In this document: one piece after another, positions 19,125 through 61,576 of the stretch
How positions within the stretch are numbered: position 1 is the first letter of the stretch
Layout: each line of letters opens with the position of its first letter
DNA from: Amphirosellinia nigrospora
Taxonomy: Eukaryota > Ascomycota > Sordariomycetes > Xylariales > Xylariaceae
NCBI GenBank assembly: GCA_004123355.1
Contig: SCHM01000004.1
Location: 4,615,017-4,679,016 of the forward strand
DNA length: 64,000 nt
Reading direction: 5' to 3'
Position numbers and translations under genes: made by a program
Notes under the pieces: model-generated
The model's input: the letters and a program-made list of their open reading frames with translations, nothing else
Told to the model about the DNA's origin: nothing
The model's database searches: none

Positions 19125-19420
19125 AGTTACGTTTTATATACTCGAAAAAATAAAGCTCTAGTATATATAGTATATTATATATAAAATCTATAAATAAAGT
19201 AGGAAAAAAAAAAGGTCTAAGTTTACAATATAAGCAGCTGCTTAAATACTCGCGTAAAGCAGCTGTATTTATTGCTAATGCCTGCTTTTATTTACTACAA
19301 CTATATTCACTGCGAATAGTAGTTACGCATTCACTGCAAGTGGTAGTTACTACAAGTAGAGATTACGGGTGCTATGGCTAGTAGTAGGGCATAGCTACTA
19401 GAGCTTGCAGATCCGTAACT
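19125..19420 (-). mobile_element. Solo LTR, AGTTAC-type family, TSD TTTAT
   Basis: This 296-bp unit starts AGTTACG and ends CGTAACT, a 7-bp terminal inverted repeat. It is bracketed by a perfect 5-bp duplication, TTTAT, at 19120-19124 and 19421-19425. It is homologous to 22536-22831 (inverted) and to the two LTRs of the element at 48042-54647. With no partner copy sharing its target duplication, it is best read as a solo LTR left by LTR-LTR recombination. It is less mutated than its surroundings. The minus orientation is taken from the full element, where a purine-rich tract marks the 3' side on the minus strand. It is a fossil and carries no gene. Confidence 0.85.
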
Positions 19421-22535: not shown

Positions 22536-22831
22536 AGTTATAGATCTGCAGGCTCTAGTGGCTGTGCCCCACTACTAGCTATAGCACCCGTAATCTTTAC
22601 TTGTAGTAACTGCTATTTGTAATGAATGCGTGACTGCTATTCGCAGTGAATGCAGTTGCAGTAAATAAAAGCAGGCACTGGTAGTAAATGTAGCTGCCTT
22701 ACGCAAGTATTTAAGCAGCTGCTTATATTATAAACTTAGACCTTTTTTTTTTTTTATTCTATTTATAGATTTTATATGCAATATATTATATATGCTAGAG
22801 CTTTGTTTTTTTAAGTATATAAAGCGTAACT
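22536..22831 (+). mobile_element. Solo LTR, AGTTAC-type family, inverted, TSD TTAAC
   Basis: This is another 296-bp copy of the same LTR, in the opposite orientation to 19125-19420. It runs from AGTTATAG to GCGTAACT and is flanked by a perfect 5-bp duplication, TTAAC, at 22531-22535 and 22832-22836. Having its own target duplication shows that it inserted independently. It is therefore not the other arm of a composite element with the copy at 19125. It retains much of its GC, including the palindrome AGCAGCTGCT, also present at 19233. Confidence 0.85.
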
Positions 22832-38627: not shown

Positions 38628-39928
38628 TCAAGGTTCTCTGCGTATTGCTTGTTGGATTGTTCTTTGTGCAATCTGATCACTGTCTGAGTCTGGACTCTGG
38701 GCCTGGATGGGTTTTGAGCTACCAGTTGGCCTTAACCAGTCTCGCACTTGGCCGAAAAACGCGGGGAAGGAGGAAACACAAGCGACAATGATGCCGATAT
38801 TGATTTCGACGATGCTAAATGATTCTTAGTATCACAGACTAATGAAGACTATTATGGGGAAATTAACCTGAATTCAGCAAATGTGGCTTGGCTCCAAATA
38901 AAGTCTGAGGCCCAATAGTTGATAACTATTTCTATCAATCGTGCGAGACTGGCAGCACAGGCTCTAAGAGAAATAGAATTAGCAAAGAATTAACTTGCTA
39001 TAAGGAGATTTTTAACAGTCACTCACCCCAAACCGGTGGCAAAGACGGCGATGAGGCCTAACCTGCGCCGAGGCTGTAATTGCAACTTCATGAGAAGTGG
39101 GAATGGGAGTAAGAAAAGCCAAAGATCCGTAATGACATTGAAACTCGCGTTCAATAACAACACCGTTCCCTGGGAATCGCGACAAAAGCGGTTTTCCGTA
39201 AGTGCCGTTAGGTCATTGCAGGCGACGAGGAAACCGATCTCGATGCCGGCCAGTGGGATATAGATAAGTATTAGGATGACAATACTGATGATCACAGAGA
39301 GGGCAAAATTTTTATTGACGCCGAAGAGTCGTAGATATAGAAGAAGAATAGAGAGTTTGGTGAAGAGAGTTGTAATTTGGTAAGAGATCCCATTCACTGA
39401 TAGCGACTGAACAAAGTGAGTAATAGCATTCATCTAGATGCGAATAACACATACTTGGCTTTCAATTGCGCTAGGGAATGATGAAATATCAATGTCCCAG
39501 ATATGTTTTACGGGGTTTTTATTGTGACTGTGCCAGCATATCAGATCCAGCTGCCTTAGATCACTGCCTGTTTAGATCCAAACCTTCGATGTAGAGTATT
39601 GCAAAGGACAACGATCCGATCTGTATCGATAATGAGCTGCATCATTAGGATAGGTCATAAACCATACGGAAGCCACAATGCAAGCAGTGGGAAGAATGGT
39701 ATTAGTATCATGAACCCATAATAGACTCGCACAACACTCACAGTCGTCCCAACCCCAGCTCTTCGTCAAGCGAAGGCGAACGAAAACCCTGATCAATACA
39801 GCGAGAAACGCCAAGGAGACGAATATGCCGAGAATTACGAAGGATGGGCCCTTCGATATGGAATCTCCAGAGTTTGGGACAACTCCCGGGGGCGGTGGTG
39901 CTGCGGGGTGGTCGTTATAGTTGGCCAT
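38628..39928 (-). CDS. Fungal rhodopsin-domain (PTH11-like) integral membrane protein
   Basis: I read five exons: 39742-39928, 39455-39567, 39027-39406, 38868-38963 and 38628-38814. The four introns (174, 48, 63 and 53 nt) have GT-AG ends, and the frame holds to the TGA at 38628, giving 320 residues. Family signatures (rhodopsin domain, PF20684) are WGWDD at 58-62, KHIWDI near 83-88, FTKLSILLLYLRLFG near 115-129, a Cys at 163 and another at 175, and VEINIGIIVAC near 261-271. Hydrophobic helices lie near residues 29-50, 107-129, 134-162, 180-207, 215-240 and 252-279, and the tail is short and polar. The second helix expected between WGWDD and HIWD is missing in this model. The unusually long first intron (39568-39741) may therefore hide another exon or an indel. 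Related proteins are plasma-membrane, receptor-like and often linked to surface sensing; the ligand is unknown. The other junctions look sound. Confidence 0.8.
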
Positions 39929-40518: not shown

Positions 40519-40523
40519 GATTG

Positions 40524-40718
40524 TGTTGGATTACGCACCAACTGGTGATCTACCTATACATCACTAAATAGATCACCCGTTGCTTACTTATATATATAGC
40601 AGTGCGCCAGGGCTTAACTAGTAGCTAGTGCTCCCGTTAAATACTTTATACTAGAAATACCTTAATTAAGCTTAGCAGTAATATAAATAAATTAATATAT
40701 ATATTATTAAATTTAATA
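40524..40718 (+). repeat. Left LTR of outermost element
   Basis: This 195-bp LTR aligns end to end with 61375-61571 and shares TTGCTTACTT, GGCTTAACTAGTAGCTAGTG and ACCTTAATTAAGCTT. Its outer part (to about 40670) is nearly unmutated, while its inner end is AT-converted. Confidence 0.9.
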
Positions 40719-43700
40719 ATTAAAAGTTTTATTATAATTTTTATATTTTATTAAAAAATAAAGCTATAAAAATATATATTAAAAAATTATTATTATATTT
40801 ATATTAACTATTATAATTTTTAATTCGCTAGAAACTTTTTATTATAAAAAAAACTTTATAACGTTTATAATTTTAAAAAATTTCTAAAAGTACTTATAAC
40901 TAAAAAAACGCGATCTTTTTAGCCTATAAAACTAAGCATACTAAACATATTTAATTTTTTTATATTTATAAACATTAATTTAATAATTGCTATATTAATA
41001 AATTTAATAATAAATAAATAAACTTTATATATTAATATTTAATAACGTTATAATATTATTTTAAAATAATATAATATTTATTAAAATAAAATTATTAAAC
41101 TTTTTAAATAAATATAAAAATAATAAATTCGAACTATAAATTAATTTATATAAAAACTTATTAAACTTTTAATTAATAATATAATAATTTAAAAAACTTA
41201 ATAAAATAATAAGCTAAGTTTTTAAATATAAATATTAAAACAATTATAAAACGTTTATTAATATTATAATAAAAAACTTATTAAAAACTTTACTAAATAA
41301 ACTAATAAATAGCTAAATAAAATTATTAAAATAAATATTAAAAAATTAAATATTATTAAATTATTTAAGCTTATAATTAATTTAAAAAAAACTTTATATA
41401 ATATTAATTTATTTTAAGCTATATTATTAAAAAAACTTATAATAATAAAATTTTAAATAATATTTTAAATTATTAAATAATAGCTATTAAACTTTAATAT
41501 AAAGTTTTTATATTAAATATAATATAAATATTTTAAAAATTATTAAAAAAAAAACTTTTATTACTTATAAACTAATAAATAAAAAAAAATAAAATTATTT
41601 AGTTTATTCTAATAAAAATTAACTTAAATAAACTTATGAAAAATAAAAAATATATTTCTAAATAGTTTAAAATTAACTAAATAACTAATATAATAATTTT
41701 AAAAAAATTCTTTAAATATTTTTATAAAGCGCTTTAAAGCAAATATATAAACTAAAACTAAAAAAAAAACTTTAATATAATAAACTATATAGTTTATTAT
41801 AAAAATACTTAATTATAAATTATTAGTTTGTTTTTTTAAAGTTTTATTTTAAAAACTTTAAAACTAATATTTATTTTAAACGTATTATTTATATATAAAT
41901 AATTATTAAAAATAGCGTTAAAAAAGCAATAAAACGTATTAAAAACTAATAAAAAAAAACATATTAAATTTAACGATTAATTTATAAATTAATATAAAAA
42001 TTAATATATATAACCGTTAATAATATATATTATAAGTTTTTTTATAATTAATAAAAAACTTGCTAAATTATATATATTATATAATTATACTATAATAAAC
42101 TTTAAATTTAATATATATATTTTTAACTAAATAGGTTATTTTTAAATCTTAAAAATATTAACTTAAAAAATATAATATTAGCTAATAATAATACGATTAA
42201 AATATATAGCTATAAAAAAATCGATATTAAATATAAAACTAAAAAAACTTATAGTTTATAAGCTTTATAATATAGCTTTTTATTTTAATATAATTATTAA
42301 TTTTATTTTATTATAAATTTTTAATTATAAAAATATTTATTAAAAAAATAAACTTAATTTAAATTTTTTAAAATATTAATAAAAAAAACCTTTATATTCG
42401 TTAACCCGAATATATAAAATTTGTTATAAAATATTTTTTAATACGTTTAATAAAATTATTTTTTATATCCGAAAAAACTTTTTAAACTTTTATATAAAAC
42501 GTTTTTAATTATAAACTAGTATATATAAATAATATTAACGCTTAAAATATATAAGTTTTAAATTATTAAAATAATTATTAATTTATACTAAAAAAATAAT
42601 AATTATTTTTTAAAAAAATAATAAAATTAAAATTATAAAATATATTAACTATAGTTTTATAAAAACTTATTAAAAAATAATATAAAAGCTTAATCTAAAG
42701 TTTTTAAAAAATACCCGGCTAATAATCGATTTTTACGAATTTAATAACTTTAATATAAAAAATAATTATTTATAAAAAAATATTAATTATTAATAAATAT
42801 TTAAAATATATATAAAATTATTACGTTAATAATAAACGCGCTAATATTATATAAATAGTTTTTAAAAATTATATATATTATATTTAGCTTTATTATAAAA
42901 ATAATATAATTATAATAAAATATAATAATAAATTAAAATATTATAAATAAAACTATTTAATTAATAAAACTTATATAAATATTTATAATATTAAATTTAT
43001 AATTTTTTTATTATATATTTAAAATTTTAATAAAAAAATAAATAAATTAAAACTATTATTAAATAATAAATAAACTTAATAAAAAATAATATAAGCTTTT
43101 TATTTTTTTATAGTTTAAAATAATTTATATTATAATATATTTATATAATTAAACTTTTTATTATATTAATAGTTAAAAAGTTTTTTATAAAAAGTTTTAT
43201 TTATATTTTAATAATTTATAAAACTATATAAGTTTTAAATAAACTTTAAATATTTTATATTTAATAATATATAAATATATAGTTTTTATTATAACTATTA
43301 TTATAAAACGTAAAAAAAAAGCAATAAAAAGCTTAACTTTAAAGCTTAAATAAAATATTTAATAAAATATTAATTTTTTAATATTTATTAAATTTAATTA
43401 TTATAAAAATAAAATAATCGTTATAAAAATATTATTTTTAACGAAAATAAGTTTTTTAATAGTAATAAAAATAAGTTTAAAAATAATTTTTTAAAAATAA
43501 ACTAAAAAAATTATAAAAAATTTATTAATTAAATTAATTATTAAAATATAGCTAAAATAATAACTAACGTTTTTTATAATAAAAAAATAATAAACTAAAA
43601 AATTTATTACTAAAAAACTTTATTAAACTATTAAATTAAACTAAACAAAAAGCTAATTTAAATAATAATAAATTTATAAAAAATAATTTAAAAAATTATA

Positions 43701-44415
43701 CGCTAAAAAATTATTTATATATTAACTTAAAATTTTTTTTTAATATATTTATATTATTAAAATTATTAAAAACTATATTATTTAGTTTAATTATAATAAA
43801 TTAAAACTTATTAATTTAAATATAAACTATAATTAGTTTAATTATTTATATTAAAATTAAAATAAGCTTATATTTTTAAATTAATTTATTAAACTATAAA
43901 CTATATATTTTAATATAGTTTAATTATATAAATTATTTATTATAAATAAAAAAATAATTATTAAAATATAAAAAGTTAAACTATTAAAAACTTTTTTAAA
44001 TATTATAATATTTAAGTTTAAATATTAAATATAAAAAAAATAATATTAATTTATAAAAAATATTTTTATAAAAGTTTATTATTTATTATTTATTTAATTA
44101 TAAATATTAAATATTAATAAAAGCTTTAAATAAAACGAAAAAAAAATACTTTTATAAAAGCTTATTATTTATTATTATTTAATTATAAATATTAAATATT
44201 AATAAAAGCTTTAAACGAAATAAAAAAAAAATATTTTTATAAAAGCTTATAAACTAAATAAAAAAAATCCTTTAAGCTAATAATATATTATTTTAAAGCT
44301 TATTTATAAAAACTATTATTTTAAAAAAAGCATATATATTATTAAAATTTATCCTTATTTTTAAAATAGTATAAAAAGCTCGATTTATATTTATTAAAAA
44401 ATTATTTTAAATAAG
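40719..44415 (+). other. Left interior of outermost element
   Basis: This is degenerate, A-rich sequence with no readable gene. It includes a tandem array at 44064-44250. Confidence 0.7.
44064..44250 (+). repeat. 86-bp tandem repeat, about 2.2 copies
   Basis: Units begin TTTTATAAAAG at 44064, 44150 and 44235 and share TTAATTATAAATATTAAATA. The third unit is cut short. The array sits about 170 bp outside the left LTR of the middle element, inside the outermost one. Confidence 0.8.
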
Positions 44416-44420
44416 CAAAA

Positions 44421-44700
44421 TATTATAATTATAGTATTATTTACGTACAAAGTTAATATATCGGTATTAATTACGTATAATAGCTAATTTAATTATAATA
44501 TTAGTTGTTTATATAATAAATTAAACTAGTATATTTGCCCGATTTAGTTATATAATATATATAGTAGAATTTTTTTATATAAAAAAATTTTTATATAAAA
44601 GCTTAACTTTTATATAAATAGTTAAAAAAATAAATTAATATATATAAATATTTATTTTATTTTTTATTATATACGATATTATATTTTTAGCTATTTAATA
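44421..44700 (+). repeat. Left LTR of middle element
   Basis: This 280-bp LTR pairs with 58024-58306. Shared landmarks are ATTATTTACGTA, GATTTAGTTATATA versus AATTTAGTTATATA, ACTTTTATATAAATAG and TTATATACGATATTATA. The two copies keep G and C at different places, so each was mutated separately. Confidence 0.88.
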
Positions 44701-47700
44701 TTAATTAATATTTAAGTTAAAAATAAATTAATAAAAATAAAAATAAAATTTAAACTTAGTTATATAAGCTATATTTTTTATATTATATTTTAGTTTTTTA
44801 ATATTATATTAATAAAAAAAAAATTAATTATTTTAATATATTTTAATATTATATTTTATATAAAAGTTTAATTAATAGCGTATAATTATATTATTTTAAT
44901 TATTATATAAATTATATAAAAGTTTATAATATAATTTAATAATTTTTTATTTATAATATTTTTAAATATAATAAATAATAATAATTAATTATACGATAGT
45001 TAATATAATTAAACGTATAAAAACGTTATATTTTTAAAAAAATAGTTAAAATAATTTTTATTTTTTAGCTAATATTTTATATAATAATATAGCTAAAAAA
45101 ATCGTTTAAAAAACTAATATATTTTAAATTTTATATAAAAAACTATTAACTTTTATACGTATAAAAATATTTTATAAAATTTAAAATAATTATTATAAAA
45201 TAAATTAATATATAATAATATATTTATATATAAAATATAATTATATTTTGTATAATTTAAAAAACTTTTAAAAAATATTAGTAAAAAACTTTAAAATAAT
45301 AAAACTTAAAATATTTAATAAAATTAATATTTAAATTATTAAAAAATTTACGATATTTTTATATAAAAAACGTTTTAAATTAAAAACTTATAAAACGGTT
45401 AAAAAAAAACTATATTATATAAATTATAAAAAATAAATATATTTTAATATATAAATTTTAAATTTTTATATAATTATTTTAAATAATATTATATTTTTAT
45501 ATTAAATTAATAATTTTAAAATTAATAAAGTTTTTTTATATAATAAAGCAATTTTACGATTTTTTTTTTTAAATAAAAAAATAAATAAAAAAAAAATAAA
45601 AAAATAAATAAAAAAATAGCTATAAAATAACTTACGTATATAATTAAAAGCTAGCTTTTTAACCTTAAATAATAAAATATCGTATAAAAATAAAATATTA
45701 AAAATAAAGTTCTAAAAACTTTTTATAATTATTAAATATTATTTATTATTTATTTTAATTAATAATTTATTTTTTATATAAATAAAAAATATATTATATT
45801 TTAATATATAATAAAATATTTAGTTTTTTAAAAAAATTTTTAAACTTTAAAATAGTTTATTTATTATAATAATATAAATATAAAAATATTTTTATTTAAA
45901 ATTTAAATTTTTATATAATAATATTTAAAATAAAGTTATTTTATTTACGAAATATTAAATTTTTTTAAAAATTTAGCAAAAAAAAAAACTATTTTAAAAA
46001 ACTATACGATTTATTTTATAATAAAATATAATAGTTCGTTAATTATTATTATAAATTTAAAATTATAAAAAATTAGTTTTATATTATATTTTTATAATAT
46101 TAATTAATTATATAAAAAATTATTATATATTATATTAGCTTTAATTATATAAAAAAAATATATAATATTAAATATATTTTAATATAATTATAAATTATAA
46201 TTAATATTAAACTAATTAAACTAATATTATTTTTATATAAATATATAAATAAAAAAAAACCTATTTTTATATAAAATATTAAAAATTATAATTAATAAAT
46301 TATTTAAAACTTAAAAAATATTTAAAATAAAATATTTAAAAAAAATTTATTTAAATATAATTATTATACGCGTATATAAAAACGTTCTAGAATTTAAAAT
46401 AGTATTTATTTTTTAAAAACTTATATATAAAAATTTTTTTTAAACTTTTGTTTATATTTTAAATTAAAAAAAACTTAATAATTTAATATTTTATATAAAA
46501 AATAAAAATTTATACTATATAAATTAATAGTATAATTAAATTAATTATTATTTTATATAATATAAAAATATTATATAATATTTTAAAAATTTTTAAAAAT
46601 AATATATTAACTAAAATTATATAAATAATTATTTTTTAAAAAACTTATATATAAATAAAAAATATTTTATTTATTAAAAAAAAAATATTAATTAATTAAT
46701 TATATTTTTAAAAAAAGTTTTATATAAAAACTAATATTTTAATACGTACGAAATAATATTTAAAAATAAACTAACTTTTAAAAATTTTTTAACTTATTTA
46801 ATTAAATATAAAAGCTATTTAAATATAATATAAAAAAAAAAAATTCGGATATATAAAATAAAAACGTTATATAATATATTATAATAATATATTTATATAT
46901 TATAATAAAAAAACATTTAATTAATAATTATAAACTAGCTATTTAATTTATTTATATTTAATAACTAATATTATATAAAATATTAAAATATTATTTAAAA
47001 TATAAAAACTTTAAAATTTTTTATTATAAAAAAACTATAAACAAAAGTTTATATAAAAAAACCTAAAAGCTAAAATTATTTAAACTTTTAAAATAATTAA
47101 AATAAATTTTAATAAAAACTATATAATAATTTTAGTTAATATAATAAAAATTAATAACTAATTATTATAAATTTTATATTTTAAATTTTTTACTTTATTT
47201 TTATTTTTTTTAAAAAATATAAACTATTAAAAATATATTTTAATAATATAAAAATATTATTATATAAAAAATAAAAATAATATTTTTATTATATATAAAT
47301 AAAACTATTTATTTTTTAATATTAATTTATATAAAATAGCTAGCTATTTTATAAAAACTAAACTATATTATTTATATAAATAATTTTTTTACGTAAAATA
47401 TAAAATTAAATAATTTATTTTAAAAAAAATCTAAAAATTTTATTATTATTATTAAATATATAATAAAACTTTATAATAATTTAAATTTATAATTAAAAAT
47501 AATTATAAATTTGATTATAAATAGTTATAAATATTATATAAATAAATAACTAAAATATATTATATATTATTAATATTATTATTATTTTAAACGGTAATTT
47601 TTTTAAAATTAATATTTATATAAAACGTATAAAAATATTATATAAATATTAAATTAATATTTATTAAAAAAATTTTAATAATATTATATATAATTTTAAA

Positions 47701-48036
47701 ATAAAATTTTCGTCGGATAAATTTAAAAATATATAAAAATAACTAATATATAATACTATAAAATATTTATTAAAATATACTAAATAAAAATAAAATAAAA
47801 TAAATATATAAACTATTTAAATATATATATAATATTTTTCGGGAAAAAATTAATATATATATAATAAAATTAATTTTATAAATAATAATAAAAATATTAA
47901 ATAATATTATTAAATTTAATAATTTTATATTAATTTTTTTATTTTAAAGCTTATTTTTATATTAATAAAAAGTTTTTTTTATTTTTTTATTATATAAAAA
48001 ATAATAATTATTAAAAAGTAATAAAAATATTATGTA
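44701..48036 (+). other. Left interior of middle element
   Basis: This is A-rich degenerate sequence between the left LTR and the inner insertion. No readable gene remains. Confidence 0.7.
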
Positions 48037-48041
48037 AAAAC

Positions 48042-48332
48042 AGTTACGCTTTACACACTTAAAAAAACAAGGCTTTAGCATATAAATATATTGCATATAA
48101 AATTATAGATAAAATAAAAAAAAAAAAGTTTAAATCTATAATTATAAGCAGCTATTTAAATACTCGCGTAAAGCAGCTACATTTATTACTAATACTTGCT
48201 TTTATTTATTATAACTATATTTATTACGATAATAGTTATATATTTATTATAAATAATAGTTATTATAATAAAGATTATAAGTGCTATAGCTAATAATAAA
48301 GCATAGCTATTAAAGCTTATAAATTTATAACT
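48042..48332 (-). repeat. Left LTR (3' side in element sense) of innermost element
   Basis: This LTR starts AGTTACGCTTTACACAC and ends ATAACT. It is much more AT-converted over its right half than its partner at 54360-54647. Shared landmarks are TTAAATACTCGCGTA and CTTTTATTTA versus CCTTTATTTA. Confidence 0.88.
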
Positions 48333-48343
48333 ATTTTCCCTTT

Positions 48344-51300
48344 AAAAAAAAAATAACTTAACGGGGTTAAAGTTATAATTATTCTAGAAAAAAAAGATTA
48401 TTTTAGGTTTTTATTAATATAAGTTTTTATAAAACTTTTATACTGTTAAATTATTATATTAGTTTTTTATATTATTTAAATTTTTTTGCTTAATATAATA
48501 TTTAAATATATATAATATATTTTTTTATTTATATATTTTTTTTGTGTTATTTTTTTTTTTTATGCTATAGCTTTATTATTATTTAAATATAGTTTATTAA
48601 AGCGTTATTTACGCTATTTTAGCTATTTTATAATTACTAAAAATCCGGCTAAATTAAAGTTGTTATAAAATTTTTTAATATTTTTATATTATTTTTAAAA
48701 TTTTTATTAAAATATTATATATTATTAGGTTTTTTTTTTTAGTTTATTTAATATTATAGCTTTTAATAATAAAATTAAAACGTTTATATTTTTTATAATA
48801 AATTTTTTTTTATTTTAAGTTTTATTATTTTTTTTTTAAATTTTTTGCTTTTTAATTTAATAAATTATTTAAATATTTTTATAGTTAATTTACGTATATA
48901 ATTAAATATTTTCTAAATTATAAAAATATTTAATATAATATTTTTGTTTTTTTTATATTTTAAACTTTTATTATATTATAAAAAATTTAGTTTATTTAAT
49001 AGTTTATTTTTTAAAATTATTTTTTTTTTAAAATTAATATATAGTTTTTTATATTAAATTAAATTCGCGTTAACTTTTATTAGCTTAGTTAATTATACGT
49101 TTTTAAATATAACGTAAGTTTTTTTAGCTAATTTAACAAATATATACTATTTTTTTATTTTTTTTTATATATTTATTTAAATGTTTTTTTTTAATAAATA
49201 GCTTTTATAGCTTTTTTTTATAGTCTGGTTTTTTAGTCGAAATTAAATAATATTAAAAAGTTTATTTTATTTATAAATAATAGTTTTATTAAAACATAAA
49301 AAATTAAAGCTTATATATAATTATAATAAATATACGTTTAAACTAATTATTTTAATAATAGCTTATATATAGTTTTAATTTTTAATTAATATATTTATTT
49401 ATAATTTTTATTTTTTTATAGTTTATAATATTTGTAATAACTAGTATATATTTTATACTTATTAAATTATATATTTATTTATAAAAGCAAAAATAAACTA
49501 AAGTCCGTAGTTTAAAGTTATAGTTATAAATATTCCGAAAATTTAAAAAGGTTTTTTATATATATTTTTAATATTTTCTATATTATTTTATAATATAAAA
49601 TATAATTTATATTTGTTTGTTTAAACGTTTATTATAACTAATATATTATTATATTTATATTTATTTTAAATATTTATTTAAAATCGATAATAAATAGCGC
49701 TATATATATTTAAATATTAAAAAAAATAAGTTTATTAAAGTTTTATTTTTAAATATTTTAGCAAATTTATATTTTATATAGTTATTATATATATTATAAT
49801 TTTGCTTAGCTTAAGCTATTAATAGCTTAATAATTTATATGTTTTATTTTTTAAAATATATAATAAATATTTTATAATATATTTTTTAAAAAATATATTT
49901 TTAAATATAAAAAATTAAAAATAATTAAATATTTATAAAATATAATTAATTTATTTTTTAATTTTTATAGGTTTTTTAGCTTATTATTTTTTATTTATTA
50001 ATAATAAATTTTATATTTATATTTTTATAGTTTTTTTTAAAATTCGCTCGATTAATTAATTTTATAAAAACGTTTAGTTTATTATATATTTTAATAAAAC
50101 TTATTTAATATAATTTTATTTATATAAAAATTAATTATATTATATTATTTATTAGTTAAAATTTAAAATAATATTATATTTTTTTTTAGCTTTTTATATT
50201 ATTAAATTTTTTATTTTATAATAAATATTACTAATATATTATTTTTACTAAAGTAATATAATATTAAAAAATTTATTTTAAAAAAAATTAATTTATTTAG
50301 TTTATTTTAAATTAAAATATTATTTTTCGCTAAAAAATTCTAAAGCTTAATTATTAATAAATATTAAAAAAAGCTTATTATAGCTACTAATTAATTTAGT
50401 TTTTATTTTTTAAAATAATATAATTATTAGTAATTTTTTATATAAATATTATAGTTTAATTTAATATTATAAAATATTTTCGAAAAATATATTATAAAAT
50501 ACTAAGTTTTATTATATAGTTATAATAATACGCCGGAGCTAATACTGTTAAAAAAATTAGTTTTAATTTTTATTAATAAATTATATCGAAATATTTTAAA
50601 AAAAACGTATTAAACTTTTTTAAATTAATAAAATAATTTTTTATATTTTTTAGTTTATATAAAAAGTATGCTTTTTTATTAATTAGTTTAAAAGTATAAT
50701 AATATAACTTTAAATATTAATAAAATTTAATAAAAATTATAAAATTTTAAAAAAATTATATATTTTAACTAATATAAAGGTTTTTTATTTTAATATAACG
50801 TTAATTTTAATAAAATTTATTTAGATTTTTTTAATATTAATAATATAATTTAAAAATTTAGTTTTATAATATAAAATTTAGATTTTTTAATTAATTTATA
50901 ATTTAGTTTAAATTAGTTATTTTAATATATAATATATATAAATAATATTTTTTTATTATTTTTAAATAAATAATAATATTATTAGCGTAAATATTATAAA
51001 AATATTTAAAAAATTAAATAATATATTATTAATATATTATTAAAACATTAAAAATCTATTAATAAAACTAAATAATAATACTAATAATTAATATATTATA
51101 TTTTATATAAAACGTTATATAATTTTTTTTTAAATAATATATAATATAATTAAATATTTATTATATATTAAATTAAATAAAATTTTCGTTTTATTAATAT
51201 AAGCTAAGGTTTTTTTAATAAAAAAAATAAATATTAGTTTTTTTTTATAATTTTATTTATTTATAATAATTTATATAAAAATAAACTTATTATTTTTTTT

Positions 51301-54300
51301 TATAAATAAATAAATATACTATATAAAATATTATTAAGTTTAATAAAACTTTTATATAAGTTTTAATTAAAAATTTTTATATAGTTTTAATTTATTAATA
51401 ATATTTTTATAAAAAACTATAGTTTAAATTAGCTTTAAATTTATTTTTAAAAAACTTTATTTTATAGTTTATTTATAAATAATATAATAAAACATATTAA
51501 AATTAATTCGATTAAAATATATATTAAGTTTTATTTTTTAAGTTTTTTCGCGTTTTTTATTTTAATTTTTATTTTTTTTTTTTAAAAATTATTTTTTTTT
51601 TTTTAATTTTTTAATTATTTTATTAATTTTATTAATATTAATAATATAAACGTTTTTTATTCGGTTTTTTTTTATTATTATAAAAATAATTATATTTAAG
51701 CTAAATATTTTAGTTATTAGTTTTTTTTATATTAACTAATATTATTTTATTTTATATAATAAAAATTTTTTATTAAACTTTTAAATAAAAATCGAAATTA
51801 TATTTTTTTAAAAAACGTATTTATATTTTTTAAAAATAAATTCTAGTAAAAACTAATTAAATATTATTTGTTTATTTTATTAAATTTTTTTATATTAAAT
51901 TATTACGTTTTAAAATAAATATTTTTAGTTTTTATTTTTTAAATATTATTTTTTTTTTTATTATTATTAACGTTATATTTTTTAATTTTAAAGTTATAAT
52001 TTTATTAATTATATTAAATTAATAATTAAATATTTATTATATATTTATTTTATTTATTATTAAATAATATTTATATTATAATTAAAAAATAATTAAAATA
52101 AAAATATTAAATAGTTTATTAATAATTTAGTAAAATATTATAATATTTAAACTATAGTTTATTTAAAATAATATTATAAATTAAATTAATAATAATTATA
52201 AATTTATTTTAAAAGTTTTTTTATATATTTTTAATAATAATAAAAAAGCCCGATTAATATTTTTTTATTTTTATTATTATATTTTATAACTTTTTTAATA
52301 AAAAAGTTTATAATAATAAAATTAAATAGTTTAATAATTTTTTTACAAATTATTAATTTATATTTATATATATTTATTTTATATTTTTAAAAAAATTTTA
52401 TAATTAAAAAAATTTATTATTATATAAAATATAAATATATAATAAAAGTTTTTATTTAAATATTTTTTATTAGATTTATTTTATAACTAATAATATTTTT
52501 TAAAAATATTTTTTTAAAAAAAAGCTATTTTTTTAAAGTTATTTTTTTTTTTTATTTATTATAAGTTTATTTTTTATATATTAGCTAGTTTAATATTTAA
52601 TATATTATATATAGCTAAAATAATAATAATTTAAGCTTTTTTATTTATTAAAGTTTAATTATTTTTAAAAAGTATTTTTTTAAAATATTTTTTATTAATA
52701 ATATTAAAATATTTATTATTAAAAATTAATTATTATATTTTATTAATATTAAGTTTAAATAGTTAAATAAATTATTATTATTATTATTATTTAGTTTTAA
52801 AATAAAATAAAAAATTATTTAAACAAAAATAAAAAAAAAAAATAAAAATTATAATAGTAAATTTTTATATTTTTTTTTATAAGTTTTATTTTATTTATAA
52901 TTAGTTATTATTAAATAATAAACTATTTAAAAATAATATTTATATAAACGTTAAAGTTAATATTTTTTTTTAAATATTTTAATATAGCTTTAATTATTAG
53001 TTAAAAAAATAGTTTATTTTTAAATTTTTTTTTTATTTAGTTTTATTAATTTAGTTTTATTAGCTAAATAAATAAAAATAGTTTAAAATTTAAAAACTTA
53101 ACTAATATATTAATTAAAACTAAATAATTAAAAATTAATTTTAGCTTTTTTATTATAGTTAACGTTAATATAAATTTTTTTAAATATTTTAAAATAATTT
53201 TTAAATTAATAAATATATTAAAATAATTAAATAAAAAATAAAAAAAAAAATCGTTAATTATATAGCTTTTAAAGTTTTAATATTAACTATTTTAATTATA
53301 TTATTATAAAACTAATTATATTAAATTTAAATAATTTTTATATTTAAATTTATATTTTAACTTTAAGTTTATTTTTAATTATATTATTATAAAAAATAAA
53401 TATTAATATTTTATTATATATTAGCTATTTTTTTTATTATTTAATAAAATAAAAATTATTTTATAATAATTTAATAAATTAACTATTTATTATTAAAATA
53501 TTTAATTATTTTAAACGTAATTATACTATTTAGTTATTTTTTATAGTTTATTTAATAATTAATTAATAGTTTATTAGTTAGCTTATTATTAGCTAAATTA
53601 TTTTTAATTATAAGTTAAAAATATCGGTAATATATATTAATATAATATATATTTTATTATAAAAAATAATAATTTTATTTTATTTTTTTGCTTAATTAAA
53701 TAAAATTTATTTTATTTATTTAATTTTTTAATAAATATATATAAATTAATAATAAAATAATAATAAACTATTATTAAAAAAATATATATTTTTATTTTTT
53801 AAAAAATAATAATAAAATCTTTATATATATTATTTATATTAGTTTAATTTATATTTTTATTAAAACTAAGCTAAATTATTTATATATAATATATTATTAG
53901 TTTAAAATAAAAACTAAGCTTAACGTTTTTTATTTATAATTTTACGTAATTACTAGCTAAATATTAAACCGTTCGATTAAATTAATAATATTTATATTAA
54001 ATTTTTATTTTTAAATATATAGTTATTAATAATATTATAGAACTACTATACTAAATTAATTAAAATAGTTAGCTTTTATAGCTTATTATTATAATTTTTA
54101 TATAATTAAAAAAGCTAAAATAAATATATTTTTATTATTTATTAAAGTTTTATTATAAAAAACTTATCGTTTTAAATATTTAAAGCAAATAAATCCGAAA
54201 TATTAATAAAAGCTTTAGTATATGCCGCACATGCTTATTATTTTAGTTTTTTTTTAAAAAATATTTTAATATTTTTAAATTAAATTAATTGTTTAGTTTA

Positions 54301-54359
54301 ATTAAAAAATATTATAAAAATAGTCCTAATACTTTATAATATTTTAAATAATTTATAAA
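48344..54359 (-). other. Interior of innermost element
   Basis: About 6 kb of T-rich (plus strand) degenerate sequence has no readable domain. The T-rich skew stops at both LTRs, where the A-rich skew of the host element resumes. Confidence 0.75.
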
Positions 54360-54647
54360 TATTACGCTTTATATATTTAAAAAATAAAGCTTTAATATAT
54401 ATATATATTATATATAAAATCTATAAATAAAGTAAAAAAAAAAAAATCTAAGTTTAATATAAGCAGCTGCTTAAATACTCGCGTAGGGCAGTTGCATTCA
54501 TTACTAATGCTTGCCTTTATTTACTACAACTGCATTTTTACAAATAACAGTTATGCATTTATTACAAGTAGCAATTACTACAAGTAAGATTATAAGTACT
54601 ATAGCTAGTAGTGGGGCATAGCCACTAAAGCCTGTAAATCTGTAACT
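54360..54647 (-). repeat. Right LTR (5' side in element sense) of innermost element
   Basis: This is the better-preserved partner of 48042-48332, ending CTGTAACT. It keeps AGCAGCTGCT, AAATACTCGCGTA and AGTAGTGGGGCATAGCCACT, as the solo copies do. Confidence 0.88.
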
Positions 54648-54652
54648 AAAAC

Positions 54653-57599
54653 TATATAAAAATCGAAATTAATTATATAATTAATAAATAAAATAAACTA
54701 TTTTTATAATATATTTATATTTTTTTTCGAAATAAAATTTTAATATAAAAAAAAAAATAAAATAAAAAAAACCGTACGAAATTAAAATAATCGAAAAATT
54801 AAATATAATCGTAGTTTCGATTAATAAATTAATACGCTTTTAATATATAATAAATTATATTATTATAAAAAATATTTAAATAAATAATTTAAATTAAAAT
54901 AATATATAATTTATATAGCTAATAATTATTAAAAAAAATATAATTAGCTAAAAAAAAAAAATTTAGTTTATTATTATATAACGTTTAAATATATTTTTAT
55001 ATAATATTTAAATATTATAAACTTTTTTAATAAAAAAAAAAATAAGCTTTTAAATTAATAATTAAACTATATATAAATAAAATTATTATAATTTTAATAA
55101 ACTATTTAAAAAATTAAATATAATAAAAATTAATAAATTTATTATATAAAACGTTTTTAAATTTATTATATATAATTTAAATATTTTAAAAAAAAATATA
55201 TTTTTAAATTTTATTTTATATAAAAAATTAAAAAAAAAACTATAAAACTATATAAAAATTTAAATTTATTATATAAAATATAATAATATTAAAAAAAATA
55301 TTATTTTAATTTAATTATTAATAATTTAATAAATAAACTAATAATTAATTTTAATATTTAGTTTTATTTTATATAAAACTTTAAAACTTTATATAAGCTT
55401 AAAAATATTATTTAAATTTATATTTAATTAAAAAATAAATTATTATATAATATTTATATTTATTTATTTTTAAACTAAAAAAAAAATATTTTTAAAAATT
55501 TTTATATATTATATAATTTTTATATAGTTTAATTAAATTTAAACTATATTAGTTTAAAATATATTATTAATATTATTAAAAAAAATTTAAAATATAAATA
55601 TTTATATATAATTTATATTTATTAATTATATATAATAGTTTAAATATTTTAAAATAATTAAAATATAAATAAATAATATATTAAGTTTTATTACGTTAAA
55701 TTTTTTATTACGCGAAAAAAAAAAACTTAAACGAATAAAACTTCGTATAAACTAAAAAAAACTTTATTTTTTAAATATTTATTTAAATTTAATAAAAAAA
55801 TTTTTTCGTATAAATAAAATATTATAATAATTAAAAAACTAAACTAAAAATTTAGCTAAAATTAATTTTATATAAAAAAATTCGCTTAAATTTATATTTT
55901 TTAATAAACTAAAAAAATATATATTAATAATATATATTAATTTAAAACTATATATAATTTATTATTATAGCTTAAATTATTAAGCTATAATTATATAATA
56001 TTAAAATATTAAATAAATAAATTAAATAATAAAAAATAACTTATTAAAAAGCTTATATTTATTTTTTTTAATTTTTATTATATAAAGCTTTTTATTTTTA
56101 TAAATAAATTATTTATAAATAATATAAATATAATTTTATAATTTAAATTTATTATTATATTTATAATCGAAACTTATACGAAAAATATAATAAACCTAGA
56201 TTTTAAAATTAAAAATAATATTATATATTAAAATTTAAATAAATATAAAAAAATTATATAAAATATTTTAGCTAATAAATATAATATAATTAATAGTTTT
56301 AATAATATTATTACTTTTTATATAATATTTTAAAAAATTATAAAAATATTTAATTTATTTTTAATATTTATTATTTTATATTTAAATTTTAAATTATTAT
56401 ACGATTGTTTAATTAAACTAAAATAATTTAAAAAAAAAATTAATAATAAATATTATATTTTTTAAAAATTATATAAAAAAAAAAAATCTTTAAAATATAA
56501 TAAATTAATATAAAAATAACTTAACCGATATATTTATTAAGCGTATATTAAACTAAATATTAAAAACTTTAGTTTTTATAAATAAACTATTTATATAAAT
56601 TAAAATATTTATTAAAAAACCGTAAAAATACGTTATATAATAAATAATAACTAAGCATATATAAAAACAATATATATATATATAAATATTTAAAAAATAA
56701 ATATTATATATAAATAATAAAAAGTTAAAAAATTATAGCAAAAATAATAACTAAAATTTATACCCCGAAAAATAATAATATAATTAATTTTATTTTTTTC
56801 TTTTTTTTTTTTTAAACTTAAACTATATATAATAAAACAATAAATACTATAATTTTATATATAAGCGCTATAAGCGCCGCTTTAAAAACCTAATATTATA
56901 TAATATTAATTAAATAAAATATTTTAATAATTAATATAACTATTATATACTATTTAATATAAAATAATAATTTAGCTATAATTTTAAATAAAAATTATAT
57001 AAAAATATTTTTTTTAACGTATAAACTTCGCTTATATTAGCGAAAATAATAATTAATAATATTTAAAAAATAATATTATATAAAAAACAAAAATAATTAT
57101 ATTTTTTTTATTTTATTATATAAAAAATAAATTAACTAAAATATATATTAAAAATTATTTATAAAATAAATAAATAAAAATATATATGTATGTTTATATA
57201 TAACGTTAATATAAAAGCTTTATAAGCTTAATTTTTAATAAAAAACTATAAACTTTAATAACGTTATTATTTTTTAAACGTATAAAGTTTTAAAACTATA
57301 TAATATATTAAAAATAAAAAATATAAAATATAAGCAAAAAATTTTAATAAAATTAATAAGTTTTATAATAGCTATTATTAATATTAATAGCAATTTTATT
57401 TTAATTATTTATTAGTATAATATTTAAAAAAACTTAAAAAGTTTTATATATAATAATAATAATAATAATAATACTACTATTAATATTATTAGTATTATTA
57501 ATATTATGCTACTATTATTACTAATATTATATTTATTATATAATAATTATTAAACTTAATATTATAAAGTTTGCAAAATTAGTTAGAATATACGTAAAA

Positions 57600-57646
<47 letters not shown>

Positions 57647-58023
57647 TATAAATATACGCGCGTAAAAAAAAAAAAAATAAAAAAAAAAAAAAAAACAATA
57701 TAAAAATAATTTAATTATATACAATAATAACAAATATAAAAATAACGTATTATTTAATTTTTAAAATATTTAAATAAATTAAATAAAAAAATTATATATA
57801 ATAGTTATATATAAATTAGCTTTTTTATTTATATTTATTAACCTTTTTTTTATATAGTTATATAAATATTAAATATTTTAAAAAAATAATAATTTAATAT
57901 ATTATTAAGCGCTTTTTTATTATATATTTGCTATACGATATATTTAATATTTTTTTTGCGTTAGATTTTTATATTAAAAAAAACAATCGTATAAAAATAC
58001 GCTAGCTAAAAAAAAAAAGCTAA
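54653..58023 (+). other. Right interior of middle element
   Basis: This is A-rich degenerate sequence continuing the middle element after the inner insertion. It includes an AAT-type microsatellite (57451-57535) and a (TA)22 run (57601-57644). No gene is readable. Confidence 0.7.
57601..57644. repeat. (TA)22 microsatellite
   Basis: This is a perfect TA dinucleotide run within the middle element's right interior. Confidence 0.95.
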
Positions 58024-58306
58024 TATTATAATTATAATATTATTTACGTATAAAATTAATATATTAATATTAATTATATATAATAATTAATTATTAATTA
58101 CAATATTAGCTGTTTTATAATAAAGTCGGGCTAATATACTTATTTAATTTAGTTATATAGTATATTATAGTAAAATTTTTTTATATAAAAAATTCTTTGT
58201 ATAAAAGTTAACTTTTATATAAATAGTTAAAAAAATAAATCGATATATATAAATATTTATTTTACCTTTTATTATATACGATATTATACCCTTTAGCTAC
58301 TTAATA
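58024..58306 (+). repeat. Right LTR of middle element
   Basis: This is the partner of 44421-44700. It keeps AGTCGGGCTAATATACTT where the left copy is AT-converted. Confidence 0.88.
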
Positions 58307-58311
58307 TAAAA

Positions 58312-61300
58312 TATATTTATTTATAAAATTACTAAAAAATAAAAACTTAAAAAAAAATGCTTAAAAGTTTAACTTTAAATAAACTAGTTTTTAATTATAT
58401 ATAAATATATATATATAAATTTAATAAATATAAATATTATAATAAATATAAAGCCTAGCTAATATATAAAAATTAAAAACTAAACTATAATAAAAAAATA
58501 CTTATATAAATACTTTAGCAAAAAAATCGTTTAAAACTTTAATAATAATTGCTGCTAAATTTAATCTCAAACTTAAATAATATAATACTATAAATATTTT
58601 TATTAACGTAAAACTTATTAAAAAAGTTTATATATATATATTTTTTAGCTATAAAAAATAAACATTATAGTTAAACTATTATAAGCTTTTTATAGCTTAT
58701 AAAAATTTTTTTATTATAATAAAAAAACTTTTAAAATTATTAAATAAAATTAGTTTTAAACTAATATTTTATAAACCTTATTATTTTTTAAAAATAAAAT
58801 ATTTATTTTCGTTTACGTTAATAATATAATAGTTATATATACTTTTAAAAACTTTAAATTAGCTAATATAATAATATTATATTAAAATCTTAATATAAAT
58901 TAACTAAAAATAAAAACTTATAATAGTTTTTAAAAATAAAAATAATTTAAATAAATAAAAATAACTACTAATTATTTTAAACTTTTTATATCGAAAAAAT
59001 CGTTAAGCTTTAAAATATAAATACTATAATATATATTATTATTTTAATAAAACAAATAAATTATTCCTATATAAAAAATAACTTTATTTTTAAATATATA
59101 ATAATATTAATAAAAAATAAGTTCGATTTTATACGTAGCTATTATTATATATTTAAATATAACGTTTATTATTTTTAAGCTATTATAGTTTAATTATAAC
59201 TTTTTTCTTAAATATTATAAAGCTATAAATAAAATTTTTATATTTATTATTTATATAGTACTATATATTATAATTTAGCAATAAAAATAACTTTATAATA
59301 ATTAATAATATATTATTTGCTAATAATATTATTAATAAAAAAAGCTTTTAAGCTTATATTATAAAACTTTTTAATAAAATTATAAATTAAAAAGCTAATA
59401 AATAAAATATAATTATAATATTTATTATAAAAGCTAAATTATTAACGTTAGCTTAAGCTATTAAAAAAACTATATATATTAATAAGTTTATTATTAAGCT
59501 TAATATAATTTTATATTTATAATATATTTAAATTTAATATAATAATTAATAAACTATAAAGCTAATTATTAAAAAATTAACTTTTTTATATATTAAACTA
59601 TAATATATTAATATTTATAACTATTAGTTACGCTAAAAAGTTAAAAATAAAACTTTAATAATAATATATACGCTTATTAACAAAATAATTATTAATAGCT
59701 TTATTAAACTTTATTTATTTAATAATAAATAACGTTTTTTTAATAACTAAAGCTAGCTAAACTATTTATTAAACTAATAATATTAATAAACTAATTATTT
59801 ATATTAAAAAAAATCGAAAACTAACTAATAAGCAAAAATTAGCCGAATAAACTATTAATTAATTATATTTTATTTTTTATTTATTAAATATTAAAATTTA
59901 AATTATAAACGTTTATAATATAAATAAAAAATTAATTAACTTTTATTTAAAGCTTTAAAAGTATTATATATAATTTAAAAAAAAAAAAAATAATTGCTTA
60001 AAAAGCCTGCGATTTTGCTACTTAAATAGCCGGAGCTTAATTTTAACCGGCTTATTTTTTTTTTTTTTTTTTTTTATTGTTTTAGAAAGCTTTAAAATAT
60101 ATACTATATATAAAGCGGTAAGCCGGCGTATAAGCTCGGCAAAAAACATATAGCAAAAATAATAACAATAATAATAGCACATTTAATTAAATATTATATA
60201 AAATATAAAAAGCTTATTTAATATTTTTAAAACTAATTACTATTAAATAAACTATTAATTATTAAAATAAAAAATTATTTATAGCTTTTTATAAATATAT
60301 TTAAAAGTATAATATTAATAGCGCGCTTTATTATTAATTATTTTTATATAATTATTATTAAAATAACCTACGAAAACGCTTTTAATATACTAAAAGTATA
60401 AAATTTCGTAGCGAACTAACAAACGTTTTAGCTTAAAGTAAAAAATAGCATAATAATAATTTATATTATTTTTATAACTATATAAATAATAACTAAACTA
60501 ATAATAATAAAAAAAACAGTTAATAATAATAATAATAATAATAATAAACGCTTTAATAAAACTAAAATAAAAATTAATATTATTTAGATTATTTATTTAA
60601 CTAAATTAATAAAAATGAAAAAAGCTTAACATTAAGCTAATAACCTTAAAAATAATAGTTATAATAATAATAGCTAAAGCTTAACAAGCTAGCGTATAAA
60701 AAATAATAATAAAGTTTTACGGGCGCTATATTTAATATAACTTAGATTAGCTAGCTAAAGCGAGCTAAAATAGAAAAAATAACAAACAAAAATATTTTTT
60801 CGCCCACAAATAAAAATAAAATAAAAACAAAATAAATTATTAAACTATTTAATAATAAATTATATAATATATAAATAATATTTATAAAAAAAATAATATA
60901 ATATAAGTTTTTATATATATTAATAACTAAATATATATTAATACTAAGTTTAATAACTATTAACGCTATATATATTATTAAAAACAACTTAAATATATAC
61001 GAAAGTTTATAATTATTTAATTAAACTATATATAAATTAGTATTAATTTCGGCTATTATTTAAAAAGTACGTATATATAAATATACGCAACTGTTTATTT
61101 ATAAGTTTTAAAACTATAATAGCTAAAAAAAAAAAAAAAAAAAAAAACAGCTAATATTTATATAAATAAATTAACTATTATTATTTGCGTAATTATTTAT
61201 ACTTATTTAATTATTAATAATAACTAGCTTTATAATATTTATATTAAATAAATTATAAAGTATTTATTATTATAATATATTAATAAACGATTTATTTATT

Positions 61301-61374
61301 ATACTTTATATAAATTATACGCTTATTAACTAAAACCTAAAAAAACAACTAAATCTGCTTTTTTTAAAAAAATA
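58312..61374 (+). other. Right interior of outermost element
   Basis: This is A-rich degenerate sequence. It contains a better-preserved imperfect hairpin (60013-60158) and a run of 23 A (61125-61147). No gene is readable. Confidence 0.7.
60013..60158. repeat. Imperfect inverted repeat (hairpin), ~146 bp
   Basis: The left arm 60013-60054 and right arm 60119-60158 pair in register: TTTTGCTA with TAGCAAAA, GCCGGAGCTTA with TAAGCTCGGC, and CCGGCTTA with TAAGCCGG. The loop of about 64 bp starts with 21 T (60055-60075). The arms keep GC that the surroundings have lost. It may be a small foldback element inserted in the outer retroelement, or part of that element. No target duplication is evident. 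Confidence 0.65.
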
Positions 61375-61571
61375 TATTAAATTACGCACTAACTAATAAT
61401 TTATTTATATATTACTAAATAAATTACCTAGTTGCTTACTTAATATATATATAGTACGCCGGGCTTAACTAGTAGCTAGTGCCCGTTAAGTACTTTATAC
61501 TAAAAATACCTTAATTAAGCTTGGCAGCAATACACAGATAGATCAATACACACACATCACTAAATCTAACA
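61375..61571 (+). repeat. Right LTR of outermost element
   Basis: This 197-bp partner of 40524-40718 is the mirror case: its inner (left) part is AT-converted, while from about 61440 outward it is nearly unmutated through TTGGCAGCAATACACAG to CTAACA. Confidence 0.9.
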
Positions 61572-61576
61572 GATTG

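Follow-up and report, generated by a model that had tools for sequence, protein, structure and literature searches.

What has built the AT-rich block at positions 40519-61576 of a 64,000-nucleotide stretch of the Amphirosellinia nigrospora genome (48.1 Mb in 11 contigs), and in which order were its parts laid down? The stretch, G000:C6:4615017-4679016, is called the window at its full length, and positions without a contig name refer to it. The core of the block holds 5-11% G+C in 2-kb steps (5-12% in the element bodies), whereas the flanking DNA retains 46-51%, with 46.5% in the G+C-rich island to the left (38-40 kb) and 51% to the right (62-64 kb). The block was found to be a nest of three long terminal repeat (LTR) retrotransposons of different families, one inside another, here termed level 1 (outermost) to level 3 (innermost) and belonging to families 1 to 3. 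We give a probability of about 95% to the reading that the three families (a copia element, an element without superfamily assignment and a chromovirus) inserted successively, each with a 5-bp target site duplication (TSD) made by integrase, and were then mutated by repeat-induced point mutation (RIP). Nested LTR retrotransposons of this kind are a known and ordinary structure. Orientation, the superfamily of two of the three levels and, for one level in detail, the damage can now be read.

At all three levels, two direct LTRs enclose one body. The pairs were compared by transition-tolerant local alignment against 300 dinucleotide-preserving shuffles per pair. Level 1 scored 287.5 (shuffle maximum 78.5; other positions of the region at most 75) with 159 identities, 32 transitions, no transversions and 10 gap columns. 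The corresponding values were 462.5 (144; at most 135) with 243, 34, 1 and 7 for level 2, and 439.5 (106; at most 123.5) with 230, 52, 3 and 7 for level 3. Counting transitions as mismatches left the scores above the shuffles (180 against 41.5, 343.5 against 81 and 261 against 55 for levels 1, 2 and 3). With C/T and G/A differences tolerated, the LTR pairs named in the original prediction, which had been drawn from this DNA alone, thus align far beyond chance. Other copies were searched for and found for all three LTRs (92, 322 and 262 first-look candidates for levels 1, 2 and 3, of which 40 places each were scored, counting those of the window itself); each LTR is a genome-wide repeat, and the copies share their boundaries with the LTRs of the window. 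Within the window, the level 1 and level 2 LTRs occur as these pairs only. The level 3 LTR has two further occurrences, both complete solo LTRs of 296 bp, at 19125-19420 (+) and 22536-22831 (-), flanked by the exact 5-bp duplications TTTAT and TTAAC, respectively.

The order of insertion was read from empty sites. For each inner element, a 300+300-base join of the host-element flanks was searched genome-wide. All 40 scored places run unbroken across the join at the level 3 site in level 2 (87-92% identity), and 30 of 40 do so at the level 2 site in level 1 (82-92% identity); two of the remaining ten places are this window's halves and the rest, among the matches listed, are partial at 69% or less. 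Four copies were read per site, and all four carry the target once, AAAAC at the level 3 site and CAAAA at the level 2 site. Because uninterrupted host copies run through each inner site, the order 1, 2, 3 is fixed and stands without any dating. Three nested elements whose order is set by geometry had been predicted, and the empty sites and the TSDs of other copies bear this out; the predicted net lengths of about 7.2, 7.3 and 6.6 kb likewise agree with the 7157, 7275 and 6606 bp obtained from the coordinates. The divergence of the LTRs gives no confirmation of the order, since transversions number 0, 1 and 3 in levels 1, 2 and 3, which is too few to rank and runs in an unexpected direction. 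A probable second nest was seen by one junction at L004 (C6:6775343-6778544), where, at about position 970 of that locus, a family 3 end, made up of the LTR and the body next to it, meets the interior of a family 1 element.

The TSDs of the window read as claimed, exact at levels 1 and 3 and with one C/T difference at level 2 (Table 1), and other copies also carry 5-bp duplications, family 2 being the least consistent. An exact pair of 5-mers is expected by chance at 1.7% in the AT-rich DNA here (2.5% with one transition tolerated) and at 0.11% in the G+C-rich flanks. In family 1, all six other pairs fetched match, four exactly and two with one transition. Exact 5-bp duplications were also present in all six family 3 cases read by eye, namely level 3 of the window, the pairs L041/L062 and L058/L048, a near-unmutated copy (TAAAT) and the two solo LTRs of the window. 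Twelve pairs were fetched for family 2 and nine were usable, after two with a mis-located right end and one in which a right-hand LTR had been taken as the left were set aside; six of the nine match, five exactly (one after the boundary was moved by eye) and one with a single transition. As CAAAA stands in all four uninterrupted copies, the T of the right-hand TAAAA of level 2 is suggested to have arisen from C after insertion.

Chance similarity of AT-rich sequence, by which the LTR pairs and the 5-mers would be coincidental, could draw on bodies of 5-12% G+C and on a TAAAA frequency of 29 per kb, which leaves that level 2 half with little weight alone, but it is scarcely credible given that none of the 300 shuffles per pair, and no other position tried in the region, reaches the LTR scores, that LTR copies with matching boundaries are found throughout the genome and that continuous empty sites refute it. 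Ectopic recombination or an assembly artefact between dispersed copies, in place of successive insertion, would be favoured by three families that are high-copy and AT-rich. Recombination would usually unmatch the duplications, however, and a matching duplication is found at each level; the net lengths, too, agree with those of uninterrupted copies, one of family 1 (about 7.16 kb) and one of family 2 (about 7.34 kb). An origin of the nest by this route is very improbable.

Old RIP-mutated repeats often lack their starting sequence. For level 3 a near-unmutated relative was available, 2.6 kb of which (L078, C4:4990000-4992600) allowed a direct context-by-context count of the damage. Relative to it, 1161 of 1314 G:C pairs have been lost in the window. 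Over 2499 aligned sites, C had changed to T at 588 of 654 and G to A at 573 of 660; by context, the C-to-T change had affected CpA at 153 of 154 sites, CpT at 152 of 166, CpG at 165 of 189 and CpC at 118 of 145. All other substitutions together number 21 (14 transversions and 7 reverse transitions). In the adjoining integrase piece, compared with L127, the next piece of the family 3 relative, 529 of 647 G/C sites are mutated. Two end pieces of level 3 gave 240/340 and 253/376, with 15 and 11 other differences; the ends of level 3 are less mutated. The signature is thus that of RIP, with C-to-T change on both strands of repeats, CpA most affected and the flanking DNA spared, and the RIP-type mutation of the original prediction is confirmed in this form. 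Its further statement that RIP had erased all coding content holds as to erosion and fails as to total erasure, for a copia reverse transcriptase in level 1 and a gypsy pol with integrase and chromodomain in level 3 could still be recovered.

A general AT mutation bias would account for the depletion of every C context and not of CpA alone. It is hardly probable as the cause of the G+C loss, since CpA is the context most affected (153/154), the other substitutions are few (21/2499) and the flanking DNA stands at 46-51% G+C. Mutation is also lighter in the two 296-bp solo LTRs, from the AT-rich DNA on the left of the window (96 of 286 G/C sites), than in the level 3 LTRs (151 of 276; p = 5e-7). 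This lighter mutation fits a length requirement and a repeat-directed process. Genes of the C5 DNA-methylase family were found at three loci (assigned at family level only), and we infer that the mutator is RIP proper, with a RID-type enzyme.

Mutation falls off towards the outer edges of level 1. Counted against an unmutated solo LTR of family 1, the left LTR is mutated at 1 of 19 G/C sites in its outer 50 bp and at 16 of 18 at its inner end, and the right LTR mirrors it (inner 50 bp 13/19, outer end 3/19). Seven other family 1 left LTRs showed the same (outer 13/134, inner 89/124) in a set biased by similarity to an edge-preserved query, and six other right LTRs agreed more weakly (inner 68/97, outer 54/113). 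In family 3 the protection is weak (29 loci, 24 left-hand and 5 right-hand; left-hand outer 310/541, inner 437/666). Edge protection is clear in family 1 and unconfirmed as a general feature.

Elsewhere in the genome, retroelements in a better state were noticed. The small contigs C9 (1.33 Mb) and C11 (0.25 Mb) contain 18 of 32 RVT_1 and 7 of 16 RVT_2 genome matches, many in open frames. One C9 locus, L069, has a G+C fraction of 0.47-0.55 in 14 of 15 steps, and AT-rich DNA with a family 3 LTR is also present on C9 (L070). Some retroelements of C9 and C11 seem to have escaped RIP, in a share that is biased because mutated copies are hard to detect by these searches. Furthermore, five RVT_1 matches on large contigs have the equal score of 99.2 bits and open frames of 757-1075 aa (C1:5499608, C1:12638343, C4:2326918, C4:7647740 and C4:7655988); L079, the only one of them retrieved, is gypsy-like. 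The five appear to be recent copies untouched by RIP and, together with the near-unmutated family 3 copy, suggest that RIP is now rare or has lapsed.

The coding remnants were recovered by a RIP-aware alignment, in which proteins are scored against RIP-mutated codons by summing over the codons that RIP can change, and the null was formed by reversed and shuffled proteins. A null from reversed DNA was rejected, as its trinucleotide make-up differs and it scored above the real sequence; a lenient whole-body DNA alignment, with nulls nearly as high as real sequences, was left unused. In level 1, a reverse transcriptase remnant in the 3′ part was matched by the RVT_2-carrying proteins L089 (102) and L088 (60 and 51), with nulls of 46 at most, and by L086 (66, null maximum 57), which had a second collinear stretch at 56, just below the null maximum. 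The stretches are collinear in neighbouring frames. The termini of the family 1 LTR are TG...CA after allowing C-to-T change. By its sequence, level 1 is a Ty1/copia-like element on the plus strand. No unmutated relative of its body was found. A family 1 LTR is present at L069 (79 and 80 of 80 positions matched in purine/pyrimidine code), and level 1 was considered as a non-autonomous derivative of the gypsy element there, sharing its LTR. This was rejected; the body of L069 is unmatched, the gypsy element has LTRs of its own (L069 996-1206 and 6561-6766) and the family 1 LTR lies outside it. Tandem-like repeats with a spacing of about 82-86 bp were seen in the level 1 body at about 43980-44250 of the window, near the level 2 insertion site, and similar secondary matches occur in other family 1 copies. 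On C4, two family 1 elements lie in opposite orientation, one from 7487305 to about 7494560 and the other from about 7494979 to 7502162, so that their right ends are about 0.4 kb apart.

Level 3 matched the pol of L078, on the minus strand, with a best score of 213, where 2640 null scores reached no more than 57. L078 contains RVT_1, RNase H and integrase H2C2 domains, and L127 contains rve and Chromo (PF00385, 30.9 bits at a cut-off of 25.1). RIP-aware alignment of L127 to the integrase region of level 3 gave 130 and 106 (null maximum 45) and placed a chromodomain remnant, at the integrase C terminus, at 48658-49029. The order of the domains is reverse transcriptase, RNase H, integrase. Level 3 is, from these predicted domains, a Ty3/gypsy chromovirus in reverse orientation, and as the element is on the minus strand its right-hand LTR is the 5′ LTR. 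The termini of the family 3 LTR are AG...CT and not TG...CA. In the near-unmutated copy the LTRs are identical over 298 aligned bases and end in AGTTACG...CCGTAACT, with TAAAT on both sides; since this copy has the same ends, AG...CT is original and no product of RIP. Its length, from the end positions, is about 6.85 kb, compared with 6.6 kb in the window. AG...YT LTR ends occur in the gypsy group of Drosophila. The AG...CT chromovirus offers a natural case of how an integrase accepts other terminal dinucleotides. Two family 3 LTRs in inverted orientation, no more than about 100 bp apart, were observed at L061 (1501-2180).

The LTR termini of family 2 are TG...CA after allowing C-to-T change; the terminal TG reads TA in the left LTR of level 2 and is retained in some other copies. 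A query with a less mutated family 2 LTR found no place recognisable as unmutated among the matches listed, as judged without their letters. The level 2 element may be non-autonomous or of an unsampled lineage.

Some observations weigh against the history of successive insertion and RIP given at the outset. Three of the nine usable family 2 pairs have no matching TSD. A reverse transcriptase was not found above the null in level 2 by single-protein searches or by a gypsy reverse transcriptase/RNase H profile, though levels 1 and 3 were detected; in a control, the profile built without L078 still detected level 3 (75.9 against 45.9). Because its reverse transcriptase went undetected, level 2 is no more than a candidate for a complete autonomous element. 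The gypsy reverse transcriptase profile also scored 46.7-47.4, with nulls at 45.3-45.9, in a stretch of the left part of level 1 that ends at 42787; this marginal result is taken as chance and still counts against the copia assignment. Differences other than those expected from RIP are not uniformly low, with 34 in 1231 sites against L127 and 21 in 2499 against L078.

The features of the nest and its left-hand neighbours are collected in Table 1. The right-hand LTR of level 3 has a one-base ambiguity and starts at 54360 or 54361. The two open reading frames (ORFs) to the left are probably one gene, and about 0.6 kb separates the nearer one from level 1 on its upstream side. The rhodopsin domain of the other ORF, along with the RIP pattern, indicates a filamentous ascomycete.

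Table 1. Positions of the parts of the nest and of adjacent ORFs in the window.
Feature	Position	Strand	Basis
ORF with fungal rhodopsin domain	39023-39433	-	Pfam match
Neighbouring ORF, no Pfam match	39572-39928	-	Pfam search
Level 1 TSD, left, GATTG	40519-40523	.	Sequence read
Level 1 left (5′) LTR, TGTTGG...	40524-40718	+	LTR pair alignment, genome copies
Level 1 internal region, 5′ part	40719-44415	+	Uninterrupted family 1 copies
Level 2 TSD, left, CAAAA	44416-44420	.	Sequence read; single CAAAA in 4/4 uninterrupted family 1 copies
Level 2 left LTR	44421-44700	. (orientation not assigned)	LTR pair alignment, genome copies
Level 2 internal region, left part	44701-48036	.	Uninterrupted family 2 copies
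Level 3 TSD, left, AAAAC	48037-48041	.	Sequence read, uninterrupted copies
Level 3 left-hand (3′) LTR, terminus AGTTAC	48042-48332	-	LTR pair alignment, genome copies
Level 3 integrase and chromodomain remnant	48658-49486	-	RIP-aware alignment to L127
Level 3 pol remnant (reverse transcriptase, RNase H), Ty3/gypsy	49878-52247	-	RIP-aware alignment to L078
Level 3 right-hand (5′) LTR, terminus GTAACT	54360-54647	-	LTR pair alignment
Level 3 TSD, right, AAAAC	54648-54652	.	Sequence read
Level 2 internal region, right part	54653-58023	.	Uninterrupted family 2 copies
Level 2 right LTR	58024-58306	.	LTR pair alignment
Level 2 TSD, right, TAAAA	58307-58311	.	Sequence read, uninterrupted copies
Level 1 internal region, 3′ part	58312-61374	+	Uninterrupted family 1 copies
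Level 1 reverse transcriptase remnant, Ty1/copia (RVT_2)	58494-59133	+	RIP-aware alignment
Level 1 right (3′) LTR	61375-61571	+	LTR pair alignment
Level 1 TSD, right, GATTG	61572-61576	.	Sequence read

The probable history of the nest is as follows. A Ty1/copia element (level 1, plus strand) inserted into G+C-rich DNA near the gene with the fungal rhodopsin domain. RIP converted the repeats, most C to T on both strands, because all three elements are multi-copy, and left about 5-12% G+C in the bodies. Level 2 inserted into level 1, and the chromovirus of level 3 (minus strand) into level 2. The integrase chromodomain of level 3 perhaps steers insertion into heterochromatin made by RIP, and such steering would make the nesting self-reinforcing. 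The AT-rich blocks of this genome could then build themselves stepwise: a copia family enters gene-rich DNA, RIP turns it into a near-pure A/T heterochromatin seed, and a chromodomain-guided AG...CT chromovirus inserts there, with at least one recent copy as yet unmutated. This extension of the history is tentative and, on present evidence, rather doubtful.

It was weighed on the G+C content of the 300-bp outer flanks of the copies, the window's own copy counted in each family. Flanks above 30% G+C were found for 8 of 8 copies in family 1, 0 of 30 in family 2 and 2 of 30 in family 3; by Fisher's test, families 1 and 3 differ at p = 9e-7, and at p = 4e-6 once the copies of the window are left out. 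In addition, the near-unmutated family 3 copy with identical LTRs sits in AT-rich DNA, which is one case. To the points raised above must be added that the flank contrast is open to ascertainment bias, the copies having been selected for their resemblance to mutated or edge-preserved queries and without a genome background, and that family 2, for which no chromodomain is demonstrated, keeps to AT-rich DNA just as family 3 does. For these reasons, namely the bias, the absent background and the like behaviour of family 2, targeting is held to this low standing.

The inner insertions may have been random with regard to chromatin, the nesting then reflecting the abundance of AT-rich repeats together with selection against insertions in genes. 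The flank figures, standing without the background fraction of AT-rich DNA, are open to this explanation, and it is favoured by family 2, whose flanks hardly differ from those of family 3 (0/30 and 2/30 above 30% G+C). It is opposed by the uniformly G+C-rich flanks of family 1 in the contrast with family 3, which ascertainment favours, and by the single near-unmutated copy in AT-rich DNA. We place random insertion at slightly less than even odds. Guided insertion by a chromodomain and random insertion both concern where the elements landed; successive insertion of three families followed by RIP is the reading that we retain for the nest.

In comparison with known systems, level 1 resembles the Ty1/copia retrotransposons in having an RVT_2 reverse transcriptase within its 3′ half, LTRs that end in TG...CA and a 5-bp duplication, and no difference was seen among the features tested (reverse transcriptase, LTR ends and TSD). 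The locus as a whole is like the RIP-affected AT-rich blocks of filamentous ascomycetes (PMC7882544; Trichoderma reesei, PMC5496416), long, G+C-depleted, RIP-marked and set between gene islands. Large RIP-affected regions have a mean G+C of 14.9-33.0% across the RIP species listed in Table 2 of PMC7882544; the 5-12% of the bodies here is a value from a single locus against genome averages and implies no ranking. Family 3 shares with the non-TGCA LTR retrotransposons of PMC5659011 (the TGTT and AACA families of Rosaceae, Tos17, TARE1 and AcCOPIA1) integration with termini other than TG...CA. The elements named there come from plants and carry dinucleotides other than AG...CT, which is palindromic; fungal elements with AG...CT ends may still have been published elsewhere. 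Chromoviruses, the Ty3/gypsy elements with a chromo-integrase, are described in PMC3248453 as the commonest gypsy group of fungi. The family 3 relative is like them in its reverse transcriptase, RNase H, H2C2, rve and C-terminal Chromo domains, and family 3, whose duplication is 5 bp long, differs from them in its LTR ends, which are AG...CT and not TG...CA.

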